Source: a virus. Taken from it: 35,360 nt of DNA. Location: positions 1 through 35,360 of the IMG/VR virus record IMGVR_UViG_3300013372_000564; one strand, 5' to 3'. A model generated the notes under the pieces. That model was not told the DNA's origin. It did not search any database and saw only the letters and a program-made list of their open reading frames with translations. Each line of letters begins with the position of its first letter. Positions within the stretch are counted from its first letter, which is position 1. The translations under genes and the position numbers were made by a program. This document shows positions 21,050 to 26,355 of the stretch, in pieces.

Positions 21050-21537
21050 TGACGCTCAACTCTTCAGGCCCAATCAGCTTGGGTGGCAGCACTGCGGGGC
21101 AGTCCATCAACCTTGAGTTGGGTAAATCCGCTACCGCCACGGTTTCATTGAACGACACCGATGTCCGCACACTGGCGGGCGTCGCGTCCGGCGCTATCAT
21201 CGTGCCGACCAACTTCTACGGCAAATCTAACGTGTCATTTACTCCAGATGGCGGAACAACCGCTGGGACAGCAGTGTATTTGTCAAGTGATGTTGCATAT
21301 GAAACAGCGCAAGTCACAATTACTTGCAGCCAAAGCGCCGTCTGGAATTGGACAAGGAGTGGCTCTGGGGTGCCAGCCGCAACTGCAAGCATTGCTAACG
21401 GCGGTTCTGGAACTACAATAGTATTCACGCTTGACCGCTTTGATGGCGGCATATCGCAATATACATATACTTTAAACGCAACAGCGGGTGGCGTTACAAG
21501 ATATTGGACAGTCTATTTGCGCGTGGAGAATGTTTAA
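21049..21537 (+). CDS. Fibre-tip or virion-surface protein with conserved start
   Basis: This 162-residue protein has an N-terminal half beginning MTLNSSGPISLGGSTAGQSI and ending near residue 60 at VPTNFYGKS, a pattern I recognise as widely shared in short phage structural proteins. The C-terminal ~100 residues look like a separate Ig-like beta domain with one Cys. The gene directly follows the S74 fibre with a TAATG-type overlap. The first half shares the GC-rich composition of the fibre's chaperone, the second half does not. It may attach a variable binding domain to the fibre. The function is inferred. Confidence 0.65.
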   Translation: MTLNSSGPISLGGSTAGQSINLELGKSATATVSLNDTDVRTLAGVASGAIIVPTNFYGKSNVSFTPDGGTTAGTAVYLSSDVAYETAQVTITCSQSAVWNWTRSGSGVPAATASIANGGSGTTIVFTLDRFDGGISQYTYTLNATAGGVTRYWTVYLRVENV

Positions 21538-21767
21538 TGGACACCACGACGCTTTTCACCATCCTTGGCTTTGTCATCACCGCCCTTAGCTTCATTGGGG
21601 CGCTGATAACTGTTTGGGTCAACCTGACAAACAAGCTGACGCTTCTTGAAGCGAGGTTGGGGTTTGGCGATGAGAAATTTCAAGCCATCGACAAGAAGTT
21701 TGACGAAGTGATGATGCACCTTCGCCGCATTGAAGATAAACTGGACAACAAGGCTGACCGACCATGA
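21537..21767 (+). CDS. Small membrane protein with coiled-coil tail
   Basis: This 76-residue protein has one N-terminal transmembrane helix (about residues 6-28, LFTILGFVITALSFIGALI) followed by a charged coiled coil with heptads (KLTLLEARLG, then MMHLRRIEDKL). ATG 21537 follows GGAGA at 21525-21529 and overlaps the fibre-tip stop. The topology resembles an inner-membrane spanin or a holin partner, but no outer-membrane lipoprotein partner is visible in the window. It starts the membrane/secreted block. The specific role is unknown. Confidence 0.6.
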   Translation: MDTTTLFTILGFVITALSFIGALITVWVNLTNKLTLLEARLGFGDEKFQAIDKKFDEVMMHLRRIEDKLDNKADRP

Positions 21768-22810
21768 AACAATTTGTGCTGGCTTTTATCGCGTTAATTT
21801 CGTCATCGTCAGTGGTGCTGGCACAGGCTGTATCTGTTGCCCCGACGGAATATGTTTACACCACAACCACGACAAGCACATCGGACAACAACAATACGTC
21901 CACCAGCACGAACACGAATAACAACAACAACAATTCGACTAGCACATCGACGAACACGAATAACAACAACAGCACATCTGCCAGCACTTCGGTCAACACG
22001 AACACCAACACGAATTTGAACACCAGCGATAGCACCAGCACATCGTTCAACACGAATAACAACGTGAACGCCAGCACCAGCACAAGCACATCGCTTAACA
22101 CGAACAACAACAACAATGTCAGTTCGTCAACTAACACCAACATCAACCAAAACACTGGGACGATGACCAACATCAACCAGAATACGAACATCAATTCTGG
22201 CACGATGACGAACATCAATCAGAATACCAACGTCAACACATCCGACGCGACCAATCGGAATTTCAACACCGACGTTAGCAACAGCACTGTAAACCAGACG
22301 GTCAACAGCAACAACAACAGCACCGTCAACACGAACAACACGAACAACGACACCAGCACGATTAACCAGACGACAAGCAGTGATAACCGCAACGTCAATC
22401 AGAACAACAACGTCAACGTGAGCGACAGCAAAAGCTACAGCGAAAGCGTCAATCGGCAGATCATAGACCAGAACATCAAGTCGCCACCGCCAAGCGCCAT
22501 CGCGCCGTCAATGATGTCCTATAGCCAAGACCTTTGCACCACGGGGCAATCGGGCGCTGTTCAGACGCAGATCATTGGCTTGTCGGCTGGGCGAACTGTG
22601 CGCGACCAAAACTGCGAACGCATGAAGCTGTCCAAGACCCTGTATGACATGGGTATGCGCGTTGCCGCCGTGAGCCTTCTTTGCCAAGATAAGCGGGTTT
22701 TTTCCGCAATGGAAATGGCTGGCACACCCTGCCCGTTTATGGGGGCAATCGGCGCGGACGCAACAACGGCTTGGGAAGAAAATGCTGACCGCCGCCCTGA
22801 CGCAGAATAA
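21764..22810 (+). CDS. Exported Asn/Ser/Thr-rich repeat protein with Cys domain
   Basis: This 348-residue protein has a clear Sec signal peptide (residues 1-20, cleavage after VVLA). Residues about 33-230 are almost only Asn, Thr and Ser, with Ile/Val/Gln appearing in a TNINQNTNI-like pattern from about 124. This resembles a beta-solenoid or amyloid-type stalk. Residues about 245-330 form a normal-looking compact domain with Cys258, Cys284, Cys307 and Cys323, suited to disulphides outside the cytoplasm. It overlaps the upstream gene by four bases and the next exported-protein gene by 29. No lipobox is seen. Function unknown; a surface, adhesion or envelope role is inference. Confidence 0.75.
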   Translation: MKQFVLAFIALISSSSVVLAQAVSVAPTEYVYTTTTTSTSDNNNTSTSTNTNNNNNNSTSTSTNTNNNNSTSASTSVNTNTNTNLNTSDSTSTSFNTNNNVNASTSTSTSLNTNNNNNVSSSTNTNINQNTGTMTNINQNTNINSGTMTNINQNTNVNTSDATNRNFNTDVSNSTVNQTVNSNNNSTVNTNNTNNDTSTINQTTSSDNRNVNQNNNVNVSDSKSYSESVNRQIIDQNIKSPPPSAIAPSMMSYSQDLCTTGQSGAVQTQIIGLSAGRTVRDQNCERMKLSKTLYDMGMRVAAVSLLCQDKRVFSAMEMAGTPCPFMGAIGADATTAWEENADRRPDAE

Positions 22811-24500
22811 GCGTCTTATATCCTTATTGGCTGCATTGCTGGTCAGCACATCTGCTGCTGCCCAAACATACGACCCGACACTTTTGCCGCCGCAAATCAA
22901 CGGCGCACCTACCACCATGACGCCGTTAAACCTTGGTGATGATGCTACGCGCCGTGTGAGCCTTGGCTTTGAATTTGAATATTGGGGCCAGACCTTCACC
23001 GACGTTTGGGTTTCGAGCAATGGCTTCGTATCGTTTGAGAGCGCGGCGAACCTTTGCTGCAATGGTCAACCCGTCGAACAAGCCCAGCGCAACACGATTT
23101 ACGCATACTGGTCAGACCTTATCAGCTACACTGGCAACCCATATTATCGCTTGGACGAAGGGTCTGCGCTGTTCGGGTGGTATGGCGTCCAAGAATACGG
23201 CACGAACAATTTGAACACGTTTGAAATTGGCCTATTCAGCAACGGCAATATCCAATTTAACTATGGGTCTTTGACTGCATCTGGTTGGCGCGACTTTACG
23301 GCTGGCATCACTGGCCCTGAAGCGGATGACAACGTGCCGCTTTTCTATGGTCGCAATCCGCAATTCCTGCAAAACCAATCTGGCCTTTTGACCTATGGTT
23401 CGCCAATTCCTGAAGAAGTAGCAATCGACTGCAATTCGACACCGCTGCACCCATCCTGCCCACCAGCATCAATGGGAATTGATGTCGGCGCACCTGACGC
23501 TACTGAAACTGCGCTCGAAGCTGCCGTGGCTTCGGTAGAACAAGCCGCGATGGAAGAAACCCAACAAGAAGTGCAAATCGAAGATGTTGCTGACATCGAA
23601 CAGGTGCTTGAAACCGCGCAAGAGGCATTGGAAACGGCGGAAGCATCGCTTGAAGCCGACGCTGCCACCGAAACTGAAGAACCTGTGGCAGATGAAGAAC
23701 CTGTCGAAGAAGATGCCATCGAAGAATTGATTTCGGAACAGGGCTTAGAAGACCTGAAGTCTGATGACGAACGCTTGTCGCCAGACGAATTGGCGGCACT
23801 GGCAGCGCAAGGCCCAGAAGATGATAACGCCGTTGAAGAAACAGAAGCGTCGGAAGCGCTGGCATCATTGGAACTGGAAGGCGCAGCGAACGCCACAGAA
23901 GGCCAAGACGCATCTGGTGGCACATTGGAGCAAGAAGCATCCAATCAGCTTGCTACGGCGCTGGAAGAAAGCGGACAGGGTATGCAATCCGCATTCTTTG
24001 AAGAAGCAGCGGAAGTAAGCCAAGCATCGGCGTTTGAAAGCGGGTCGCAATCGTCGCAAAGTTTTGGCAGCTTCCAAATGCGCGTTGATTTTGGGTCAAG
24101 CACTTCGGTTGCTGCTGGCGGCGGGGTTGGCTCTGGTGTTGGCTCATCGCCAGTGGAAGCAGCTATTTCGGCTGCTGGCCCTATGTCGATGTCCACCACG
24201 TTTGAAATCCTGAACAATGTCAGCGGTCAAAGTAACGCAGCACCTGTGTCTGCAAGCGCATCATCTGAAAAATCAGAAAACGAAATGGCAGAAGGCCAAT
24301 CGGAAACCATTAACGAAATGGGTTCTGTTCCTGCCTTCAATGCGTACCGACAGGTGTCACTATCTGACAGGGCTGACTTTTACGCAATTCGTGATATATA
24401 TCGCAACAGAAGGCTGCGCGATGCTGACTTTGAGATGTACAGGATGACCAAAACTAACGACGCCAAGTGGCGGGAGATTGTCGATGCCCAATACAAATGA
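22782..24500 (+). CDS. Exported acidic protein with nidogen-like N-terminal domain
   Basis: This 572-residue protein begins with a signal peptide (LLAALLVSTSAAA, cleavage near residue 27). Residues about 45-215 resemble a nidogen-like (NIDO) extracellular domain, with EYWGQTFTDVWVSSNGFVSF, then IYAYWSDL, then FEIGLFSNGNIQFNYGSL. Residues about 235-385 are extremely Glu/Asp/Ala-rich and probably disordered or helical. A Ser-rich stretch follows, then a basic C-terminal motif (SDRADFYAIRDIYRNRRLRD). Cys pairs (92-93 and near 225) could form disulphides. It overlaps neighbours on both sides, so it is embedded in the operon. NIDO domains are rare in phages. Function unknown. Confidence 0.75.
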   Translation: MLTAALTQNKRLISLLAALLVSTSAAAQTYDPTLLPPQINGAPTTMTPLNLGDDATRRVSLGFEFEYWGQTFTDVWVSSNGFVSFESAANLCCNGQPVEQAQRNTIYAYWSDLISYTGNPYYRLDEGSALFGWYGVQEYGTNNLNTFEIGLFSNGNIQFNYGSLTASGWRDFTAGITGPEADDNVPLFYGRNPQFLQNQSGLLTYGSPIPEEVAIDCNSTPLHPSCPPASMGIDVGAPDATETALEAAVASVEQAAMEETQQEVQIEDVADIEQVLETAQEALETAEASLEADAATETEEPVADEEPVEEDAIEELISEQGLEDLKSDDERLSPDELAALAAQGPEDDNAVEETEASEALASLELEGAANATEGQDASGGTLEQEASNQLATALEESGQGMQSAFFEEAAEVSQASAFESGSQSSQSFGSFQMRVDFGSSTSVAAGGGVGSGVGSSPVEAAISAAGPMSMSTTFEILNNVSGQSNAAPVSASASSEKSENEMAEGQSETINEMGSVPAFNAYRQVSLSDRADFYAIRDIYRNRRLRDADFEMYRMTKTNDAKWREIVDAQYK

Positions 24501-25014
24501 CGAAAAAGAAGAACCTAAGGTATCTTTTGATGAAAGCGGTTTCAGCTTCAACATTGGCGGCCTGAGCAGCGGCAAGATTGCTATCATCTTTGCTGCACTC
24601 TCAACGATCCTTGGCGGTCTATGGGGTGGCTTTCAGGTGTATCAGCAGTTCCTGACCATGAAGGAAGTCACAGCGGCCTATGTGCCGCCTGACCTTTCTG
24701 GAATCGAGGGCCGCATTTCGGTTCTTGATGAGCGTGTCACCAGCGTTGAGCGTCTCACCAAGATTAACAGCGAAGCCTTAAATTACATGACGGGCAGCAT
24801 CAGCAGCAGCGTCAGTGGAACGCGCCAGACGGTTGATGCTGTTTCAAGCAGCGTTAGGAGCAGCGATGCTCAAAACATGGCAATGCAACGTGCAGTGATC
24901 GATCAATTGCGGCAGCAAGATCAAGAGCAGCAACGGCGCATCAAAGAGTTGGAGGCGGAAACTAACGAACGTATCCAAAAGACGCTGGCAAATCCGCTGG
25001 CAGGAAAGGACTAA
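24484..25014 (+). CDS. Membrane-anchored coiled-coil protein
   Basis: This 176-residue protein has a charged cytoplasmic start of about 30 residues, one transmembrane helix (about 31-52) and a long helical/coiled-coil part. Ser-rich repeats occupy about 95-125, followed by RQQDQEQQRRIKELEAE. ATG 24484 is preferred because GGGAG at 24472-24476 is correctly placed; a TTG at 24478 would overlap it. Topology is that of an inner-membrane spanin, though such proteins are usually paired with a lipoprotein, which I do not see. It could instead anchor the exported proteins encoded upstream. Confidence 0.6.
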   Translation: MPNTNDEKEEPKVSFDESGFSFNIGGLSSGKIAIIFAALSTILGGLWGGFQVYQQFLTMKEVTAAYVPPDLSGIEGRISVLDERVTSVERLTKINSEALNYMTGSISSSVSGTRQTVDAVSSSVRSSDAQNMAMQRAVIDQLRQQDQEQQRRIKELEAETNERIQKTLANPLAGKD

Positions 25015-25017
25015 TAT

Positions 25018-25527
25018 ATGGATGATAAATTATTAGAGGCACGGATCAAAGCGTTGCTGCTGGCGGCAAAAACAATGGCATTCGTCATTGTCGCCATCAC
25101 TTGCGCCATGATTGTCGGCCTATTCATATCGAATGAAATTATCGACAATAAAGACGTATTCGGCTTGCTGTCATACGTCATGACTTCGGTTGTCGGCGCT
25201 GTGGCTGGCTCCTACGCCACTCTGATGGGCATGAAGGGCGAATTGGCCCCACCACCACCAGAAGACCGTGATGACCCAGAACCATCGCCTGTGGCCCCCG
25301 TAGCGCCACAACCAGACCCATTGCCGCTCACACCTGACATGGTTGCACCAGCACCACGTTACGATGACCCATCTGCTACTGTGTTTATTGATGAACCAGA
25401 AATCGATGATGACGATGACGAAATGGAGCCTTGGGAAAAGTATCGCGGTGATTTGCGTTACGATGCCAACGGTGACGGCGTAGTCGATGAACTTGATTTC
25501 CCTGATTGGCGGAGTGCTGGCAAATGA
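25018..25527 (+). CDS. Putative two-TM holin with proline-rich linker and EF-hand-like tail
   Basis: The protein has 169 residues. Two transmembrane helices (about 18-38 and 48-70) and a position directly before the endolysin suggest a holin-type role in timing lysis. After the membrane part comes a Pro-rich linker (77-112), an acidic run (IDDDDDE, about 129-135) and a C-terminal motif D149-A-N-G-D-G-V-V-D-E-L-D160. This fits the calcium-binding EF-hand/dockerin loop with ligands at positions 1, 3, 5, 9 and 12. That tail is unusual for a holin. The stop overlaps the endolysin start by four bases. Confidence 0.6.
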   Translation: MDDKLLEARIKALLLAAKTMAFVIVAITCAMIVGLFISNEIIDNKDVFGLLSYVMTSVVGAVAGSYATLMGMKGELAPPPPEDRDDPEPSPVAPVAPQPDPLPLTPDMVAPAPRYDDPSATVFIDEPEIDDDDDEMEPWEKYRGDLRYDANGDGVVDELDFPDWRSAGK

Positions 25528-26138
25528 GCTTAATTAATCTTCAAAGTAAATGTGGGTGTCATGCAGATGGTGCGTTCGGTCCAGGTACATGTAAGCAAGC
25601 TGCGGCTTTTTATAAACTATCACCTAATCGGGCTGCACATTTCTTTGCTCAAACGGCGCATGAATCGGGCAACTTCAAAGCGTTCAGCGAAAATCTGAAT
25701 TACGGCGCTAAGGGGCTGCGTGGCATCTTTGGCAAATACTTCCCAACTGATGCAATGGCCCGTGCCTATGAGCGTCAGCCACAGAAGATCGCCAACCGTG
25801 TCTATGCTAACCGTATGGGCAATGGTGACGAAGCGTCAGGCGAGGGGTGGAAATACCGGGGCAGGGGTCCGCTCCAACTCACCGGGAAAAACAACTACCG
25901 CGCATTCGGCAAGTACATCGGGCGCGAACAGGAGATTTTGGATAATCCAGACCTTGTGGCTACTGAACTGGGCTTTGAAAGCGCCCTCTGGTTCTTTGAC
26001 GCAAACAAGCTGTGGAGCATCTGCGATCAGGGCATCAATGACGCTGCCATTCTTGCACTTACTAAGCGCATAAATGGTGGAACGCACGGCTTGGATGACC
26101 GCAAACAAAAAACCAAGAAATACGCAACTTGGTTATAG
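25524..26138 (+). CDS. Endolysin, glycoside hydrolase 19 (chitinase-like)
   Basis: This 204-residue enzyme should cut the glycan strands of peptidoglycan at lysis. The signature AHFFAQTAHESGNF places the likely catalytic Glu at 47. The GWKYRGRGPLQLTGKNNY segment (108-125) is the classic GH19 core, with Glu103 or Glu107 as candidate second acid. The start (CGCHADGAFGPGT) resembles the end of a peptidoglycan-binding repeat but is too short for a full domain. ATG 25524 follows GGAG at 25511-25514 and overlaps the putative holin. No signal peptide is seen, so release through a holin is expected. Confidence 0.92.
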   Translation: MSLINLQSKCGCHADGAFGPGTCKQAAAFYKLSPNRAAHFFAQTAHESGNFKAFSENLNYGAKGLRGIFGKYFPTDAMARAYERQPQKIANRVYANRMGNGDEASGEGWKYRGRGPLQLTGKNNYRAFGKYIGREQEILDNPDLVATELGFESALWFFDANKLWSICDQGINDAAILALTKRINGGTHGLDDRKQKTKKYATWL

Positions 26139-26148
26139 GAGACTGAAC

Positions 26149-26355
26149 ATGGATTTGAAAAGCAAGCTGAAGAAAGAGGCTGGCAGGGCTTTGAAGAAAG
26201 AAGCCGAAAAAGCCATCATCAAGAAAGCTACAGGCAAACTTCTGCCTATGGTTGATGAATCTGAAAAGAAGCTGGGTTGGAAAACAACGGTTGCCGCTGC
26301 GTTGGCGTTTGTTGCCGCCGCTGCTGCTGGCCTGTTGCAGATCATCAACGGCTAA
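26149..26355 (+). CDS. Small basic membrane protein, last lysis-region gene
   Basis: This 68-residue protein follows the endolysin by ten bases with a TAGGAGA ribosome-binding site at 26136-26142. The first ~40 residues are a Lys-rich amphipathic helix (KSKLKKEAGRALKKEAEKAI); the end holds one Ala-rich transmembrane helix (about 45-65). It may help disrupt the membrane or modulate the holin; this is inferred from position and topology only. It is the final gene of the long plus-strand late operon. Confidence 0.65.
   Translation: MDLKSKLKKEAGRALKKEAEKAIIKKATGKLLPMVDESEKKLGWKTTVAAALAFVAAAAAGLLQIING

Follow-up and report, generated by a model that had tools for sequence, protein, structure and literature searches.

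A recurring P2-P3-P4 gene module in diverse tailed phages, with a putative role at the envelope of the infected cell

The window, a whole virus record of 35,360 bases, is a siphophage with terminase, portal, major head, tape measure, distal tail and fibre genes recognised with PHROGs. ORF analysis places five tightly packed genes, P1 to P5, at 21537-25527. A GH19 endolysin gene comes next, within four bases (Table 1). The junction before P1 is a TAATG overlap. Those that follow are overlaps of 4 bases (P1/P2), 29 bases (P2/P3) and 17 bases (P3/P4), a gap of 3 bases (P4/P5), and another 4-base overlap (P5/endolysin). A preliminary description had spoken of coupled genes in which every junction is an overlap or a few bases, and these coordinates bear it out. 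Its account of the gene types, namely two membrane coiled-coil proteins, two proteins with leaders and a two-TM protein with an EF-hand-like tail, agrees with hydropathy scripts and inspection of the translations. Leaders and transmembrane (TM) segments were called by such scripts and by eye rather than with SignalP or TMHMM. None of the five proteins matches Pfam above the cut-off. The genes are real: tblastn-confirmed scans of IMG/VR yielded 77 P3 loci and over 500 P2 stretches (the best 80 of 523 were used). On the 3' side of the endolysin lies the gene for Q, a small protein that is rich in lysine, has its TM segment at the C-terminus and is kept in close relatives.

Table 1. Genes, domains and motifs of the locus, in window coordinates.
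Feature	Description	Position	Strand	Basis
P1	76 aa; one TM and coiled coil	21537..21767	+	Lineage-specific neighbour
P2	348 aa; exported; leader ~1-20, Asn/Thr/Ser-rich linker ~21-240	21764..22810	+	phrog_20531
P2C	Conserved C-terminal domain of P2, four conserved Cys	22484..22807	+	Alignments of homologues
P3	572 aa; exported; head 31-206, acidic low-complexity middle, conserved tail	22782..24500	+	
P3 head	Nidogen-like all-beta domain, exchangeable part	22872..23399	+	AlphaFold; head-type tree
P3C	Conserved C-terminal tail of P3 (...WxxMVDxQY)	24288..24497	+	One cluster of 147
P4	176 aa; TM ~32-53, coiled coil, NPL tail	24484..25014	+	Hydropathy, alignment
NPL	Codons near the P4 C-terminus	24991..24999	+	Alignment
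P5	169 aa; two TM, Pro-rich linker, EF-hand-like loop	25018..25527	+	Lineage-specific
Endolysin	GH19; one transcription unit with the block in this lineage	25524..26138	+	Pfam PF00182 E=6e-12; PHROG endolysin E=5e-63
Q	Small TM protein	26149..26355	+	ORF, neighbourhood of relatives

The P2 leader is hydrophobic and ends in an AxA-type site, as does that of P3, and neither has a lipobox Cys. P2 belongs to phrog_20531 by profile match (E=9e-15 for the window protein; 36 of 37 homologues, over the C-terminal domain), a family that has no described function or genomic context. The four cysteines of P2C lie in the motif x-C...D-x-N-C-E-R...C-Q-D...G-T-P-C-P. The linker varies from 5 to 497 residues across P2 homologues (median 159) and is about 70% N+T+S where it has 40 residues or more. 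A hydrophobic stretch is found some 30-40 residues past P2C in 46 of 163 distinct P2 tails, and this C-terminus is likely an inner-membrane anchor. The AlphaFold model of P2 is poor (mean pLDDT 45).

Relatives of P2C also occur outside P2. An unannotated small lipoprotein gene overlaps the start of P2 in the roseophages CRP-810 (locus L162:5558-5818) and CRP-207 (L164:1725-1940), and its product resembles half of P2C (HMM scores of 24-27 bits); the P2C domain is therefore also used on lipid-anchored envelope proteins. Exported P2C-like proteins occur without a recognisable P3 or P4 in the N4-like Achromobacter phage JWAlpha (gp25; L163:3922-4836) and in Agrobacterium phage JP1 (gp110; L195:5851-6411), which suggests a wider P2C superfamily; a P2C alignment that takes in the far members is too divergent for scanning a sequence collection. 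A small TM coiled-coil gene lies 5' of the lipoprotein gene in CRP-810, in an arrangement like that of an i-spanin/o-spanin pair.

P3 combines a conserved tail with an exchangeable head. Residues 31-206 of the window protein are modelled by AlphaFold as a confident all-beta domain (pLDDT about 90 over most of it), and the remainder is poorly modelled. The name "nidogen-like" in the preliminary description is fair but weak: Pfam NIDO was matched in one of 35 homologues, at E=0.006, below the cut-off. A fold search gave no PDB match with E<=0.001 and four matches among viral models. Clustering of the heads yields two large groups, NIDO-type (74) and CBM-like (69), and a few others, whereas P3C forms one cluster of 147. 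The label "CBM-like" is based on weak CBM_4_9 matches in two pelagiphages (E of 0.009 and 0.02), on GenBank names and on the look of the sequence. No relation between the two head types was detected by hhalign (12.7% probability). On a P2C+P3C+P4 tree of 80 representatives, head type changes at least 14-16 times, compared with 21 for shuffled labels. Exchange is illustrated by loci L112 and L114, which are 95% identical in P2C and 84% in P4, and whose head regions share just a 15-residue stretch.

P4 has an architecture like that of an i-spanin, in that an N-terminal TM segment followed by a coiled coil is predicted. Its coiled coil varies in length, and N-P-L is invariant near its end in 27 aligned sequences. 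The roseophage P4 proteins (L164:3292-3873 and L162:7162-7584) were deposited as "lysozyme" but are TM coiled coils ending in NPL, and the P2 of CRP-810 was deposited as "OmpA family protein".

HMMs were built for P2C, P3C, P4 and the NIDO head and run over all fetched loci. The resulting rates apply to the nearest loci and not to every remote relative, because the scans keep the 80 most similar loci: P4-anchored loci with at least 4.5 kb upstream contain P2C in 54 of 54 and P3C in 52 of 54, P2-anchored loci with at least 4.5 kb downstream contain P3C in 54 of 54 and P4 in 53 of 54, in both cases in the same order, and P3-anchored loci contain P2C, P4, P5 and endolysin in 42 of 42 each. Among 15 contigs from genome bins, which include more distant members, 11 have P4 and 8 have P3C. 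P2 and P3 overlap or lie within 40 nt of each other in 125 of 136 distinct triads, and P3 and P4 do so in 94.

The outer genes behave differently. Loci anchored on P5 contain P2C, P3C, P4 and endolysin in 43 of 43 each and P1 in 38, so that P1 to P5 and the GH19 endolysin do co-occur in the window lineage. P1 was found in none of the 54 P4-anchored loci and P5 is absent from most triads; close relatives keep P1-P2-P3-P4-P5-endolysin in order, and distant relatives keep P2-P3-P4 only. On these counts P1, P5 and the GH19 endolysin are regarded as additions of one lineage. The five-gene unit proposed in the preliminary description is accordingly rejected, since P1 and P5 are missing from the P4-anchored triads and so are not obligate. 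The part of it that holds as one functional unit, by co-occurrence in fixed order, is P2, P3 and P4. By sequence comparison, P2-P3-P4 is an obligate, recurring module of tailed phages, and P1, P5 and GH19 are lineage extras.

P5 may be called holin-like by its two-TM topology, and matches no holin family in Pfam or PHROGs. Its EF-hand-like loop is DANGDGVVDELD, at 25462-25497. An EF-hand-like/TM neighbour was found beside P4, by set criteria, in 4 of 91 triads outside the window lineage, and was rejected as a general part of the module. Proteins with an EF-hand-like loop and TM segments are seen beside P4 in unrelated triads at L164:3870-4226, L180:8610-9053 and L155:7848-8195.

The module is widespread. 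P4 has at least 589 confirmed stretches in IMG/VR, and by P4 the triad is present in at least about 590 contigs, reaching 364-400 kb. It occurs in siphophages, in T7-like and other podophages, in the myophage Mosig and in roseophages. Named carriers of P2C include the Pelagibacter phages HTVC023P, HTVC033P, HTVC115P, HTVC202P, Baldr and Mosig, the roseophages CRP-207 and CRP-810, and the T7-like Votkovvirus S28-C10, and P3-like and P4-like genes lie 3' of P2 in these phages. The triad genes of cultured phages (HTVC023P gp45, gp46 and gp48; HTVC033P gp46-gp44; Mosig 202-200; CRP-207 gp75-gp73) were deposited as hypothetical, carbohydrate-binding, OmpA family or lysozyme proteins and not recognised as one module. 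There are also 26 matches from bacterial genomes. The MAG contigs that contain them are assigned to taxa that contradict one another (archaea, Bacteroidetes, Cyanobacteria and others). The matches are most simply mis-binned viral DNA, and host assignment from them was rejected. The P2-bearing contigs L169-L194 lie in bins labelled archaea, Bacteroidetes, Actinomycetota, Trichodesmium and others. One assembly that resembles a single-cell alphaproteobacterial genome also has the module.

The surroundings of the module are mixed. An endolysin directly adjoins it in 43 of 43 loci of the window lineage, the endolysin of HTVC023P, an M15 peptidase, is encoded next to P4, and in seven other triads no more than 80 bases separate the module from a GH19 lysin gene upstream of it. 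Outside the window lineage a detectable lysin lies within 5.5 kb in 16 of 69 triads, a count made with few seeds. Fibre genes and terL flank the module in S28-C10, an interval that holds the holin and Rz/Rz1 in T7. In HTVC202P and Baldr it is directly 5' of terL and the lysin is elsewhere, and in larger phages the neighbourhood is mixed and the module is often away from lysis genes. Fibre genes often adjoin it (the window, L162 and L165). Among the 25 families listed for 136 neighbouring ORFs searched against Pfam and PHROGs there is no dominant lysis signal, and a general lysis neighbourhood was not upheld.

Spanins are the closest known systems in form. Like the triad as predicted, lambda Rz/Rz1 and T4 PseT.3/PseT.2 consist of an inner-membrane coiled coil and one or more exported partners, have overlapping genes and are sometimes found beside the endolysin (PMC6139136). 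The triad differs in having three proteins, no lipobox on the partners, a large exchangeable head and a long Asn/Thr linker, and in coexisting with the Rz-like lipoprotein family in large phages. The curli/type VIII secretion clusters of pelagiphages are also exported to the envelope, in the same hosts, and have Asn-rich repeats; surface or lysis roles have been proposed for them (PMC7029224, PMC9599517, PMC9004378). CsgG (PF03783) was found in none of 15 triad-bearing records, with positive controls matched, and the Pfam matches to 37 P2 homologues, taken up to E=0.1, include no curlin family, so that curli was rejected. No Pfam family or PDB structure covers P2, P3 or P4, and the papers found in open-access PubMed Central text contain no description of the triad; the main text of a pelagiphage transcriptome paper (PMC12753301) does not mention its genes. 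The earlier view that these are not parts of a described virion or lysis structure agrees with Pfam, PHROGs and the papers found. The triad falls outside every known system with which it was compared and appears to be undescribed, which does not in itself imply a mechanism.

From these features we infer that P2, P3 and P4 would form a complex in the periplasm, tethered to the inner membrane and bearing a recognition head that can be exchanged. The inner membrane would anchor P4, whose coiled coil would lie on the periplasmic side. P2C would lie at the outer face of the same membrane, in many phages by its own C-terminal anchor, with the Asn/Thr-rich arm extending outward from it. P3 would dock on P2 and P4 through its conserved tail, and its beta-sandwich head would bind an envelope glycan or surface component that differs between hosts. 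The complex is placed in the periplasm because many P2 relatives are C-terminally anchored and P4 is membrane-anchored. The same anchors make doubtful the earlier reading of exported adhesion-like proteins facing outward; that the proteins are exported or membrane-bound is supported by their leaders and membrane segments.

Our best guess, a tentative one, is that this complex is made late and acts in lysis or egress, at the end of infection of a Gram-negative host. Around the action of the endolysin it might help to couple or breach the envelope, or else it might help to release progeny from it. It would be comparable to a lysis complex that spans the periplasm, though it is not a known spanin. 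The canonical two-component spanin, with P4 as i-spanin and P2 or P3 as o-spanin, is very improbable. The predicted topology of P4 and the overlapping genes are in its favour, and a lipobox scan found no plausible phage lipoprotein of o-spanin type in the window record, HTVC202P, S28-C10 or Baldr. The lipobox lipoprotein partner of such a spanin is, however, seen in neither the P2 nor the P3 leader, and six of nine large triad records match the Rz-like spanin family elsewhere (two weakly, one in a reading frame interrupted by a stop); in L120 a lipoprotein of this kind is encoded beside the endolysin. The module is therefore not needed to replace spanins in those six records. Somewhat less improbable is a lysis-timing device, in which P2 or P4 would act as the periplasmic antiholin RI does in T4 and would control a holin, for example P5. 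An exported disulfide-type domain near the inner membrane, and a holin-like P5 and endolysin in one unit with the triad, would suit it, but P5 is missing from most triads, no RI similarity is found in Pfam or PHROGs, and head exchange is left unexplained.

Frequent head exchange fits recognition or immunity better than a purely mechanical role in lysis. For that reason superinfection exclusion or receptor masking, although we hold it unlikely, is nearly as likely as lysis or egress. The head of the tethered complex would bind a receptor glycan or incoming phage parts, blocking adsorption, injection or the inactivation of progeny by debris. The 14-16 exchanges are as expected of a recognition part, the module often has the fibre genes as neighbours, and in many phages it is not tied to lysins. 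Known exclusion proteins are usually single small proteins, however, and three genes kept across unrelated phages would be unusual for this purpose; a late-region position is common, and no component that crosses the outer membrane is seen. An adhesin-like head, as variable as fibres and encoded close to them, could also belong to a virion decoration or a receptor-binding part added after export. This is improbable given the leaders and membrane anchors, and the presence of the module in sipho-, podo- and myophages argues for a role at the host envelope over a virion part. The P2C-like gp25 of JWAlpha is not among the identified virion proteins of that phage, which came from prominent gel bands only (PMC3915230). 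Virion proteomics of cultured triad phages was not found in the literature. Of the functions listed in the preliminary description (late envelope action, a superinfection block, an aid to lysis, decoration of the virion), decoration seems the least likely.

We give about even weight to a wider proposal, that the triad represents an unrecognised class of phage envelope machine, in genomes from ~32 kb to ~400 kb and across tail types, with a P2+P4 scaffold and swappable P3 heads, directed at competing phages or at the infected cell's envelope. The triad is found in hundreds of very different aquatic phages, including cultured phages that infect Pelagibacter (SAR11), one of the most abundant bacterial groups of the sea, yet its genes carry the label hypothetical or, wrongly, OmpA or lysozyme. 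It offers three defined proteins through which to study the ways in which these phages break through, reshape or protect the host envelope. Three small complete triad genomes are among those in which no canonical spanin gene was found, and a scaffold with swappable heads makes recognition specificity directly testable.

In one sub-group of triads P3 is short and three additional small genes stand between it and P4 (L187:7282-8756, L232:4692-5989, L236:4714-5979, L239:4661-5967, L256:4356-5678 and L265:4484-5766). In L187 these additional genes start with leader-like sequences.
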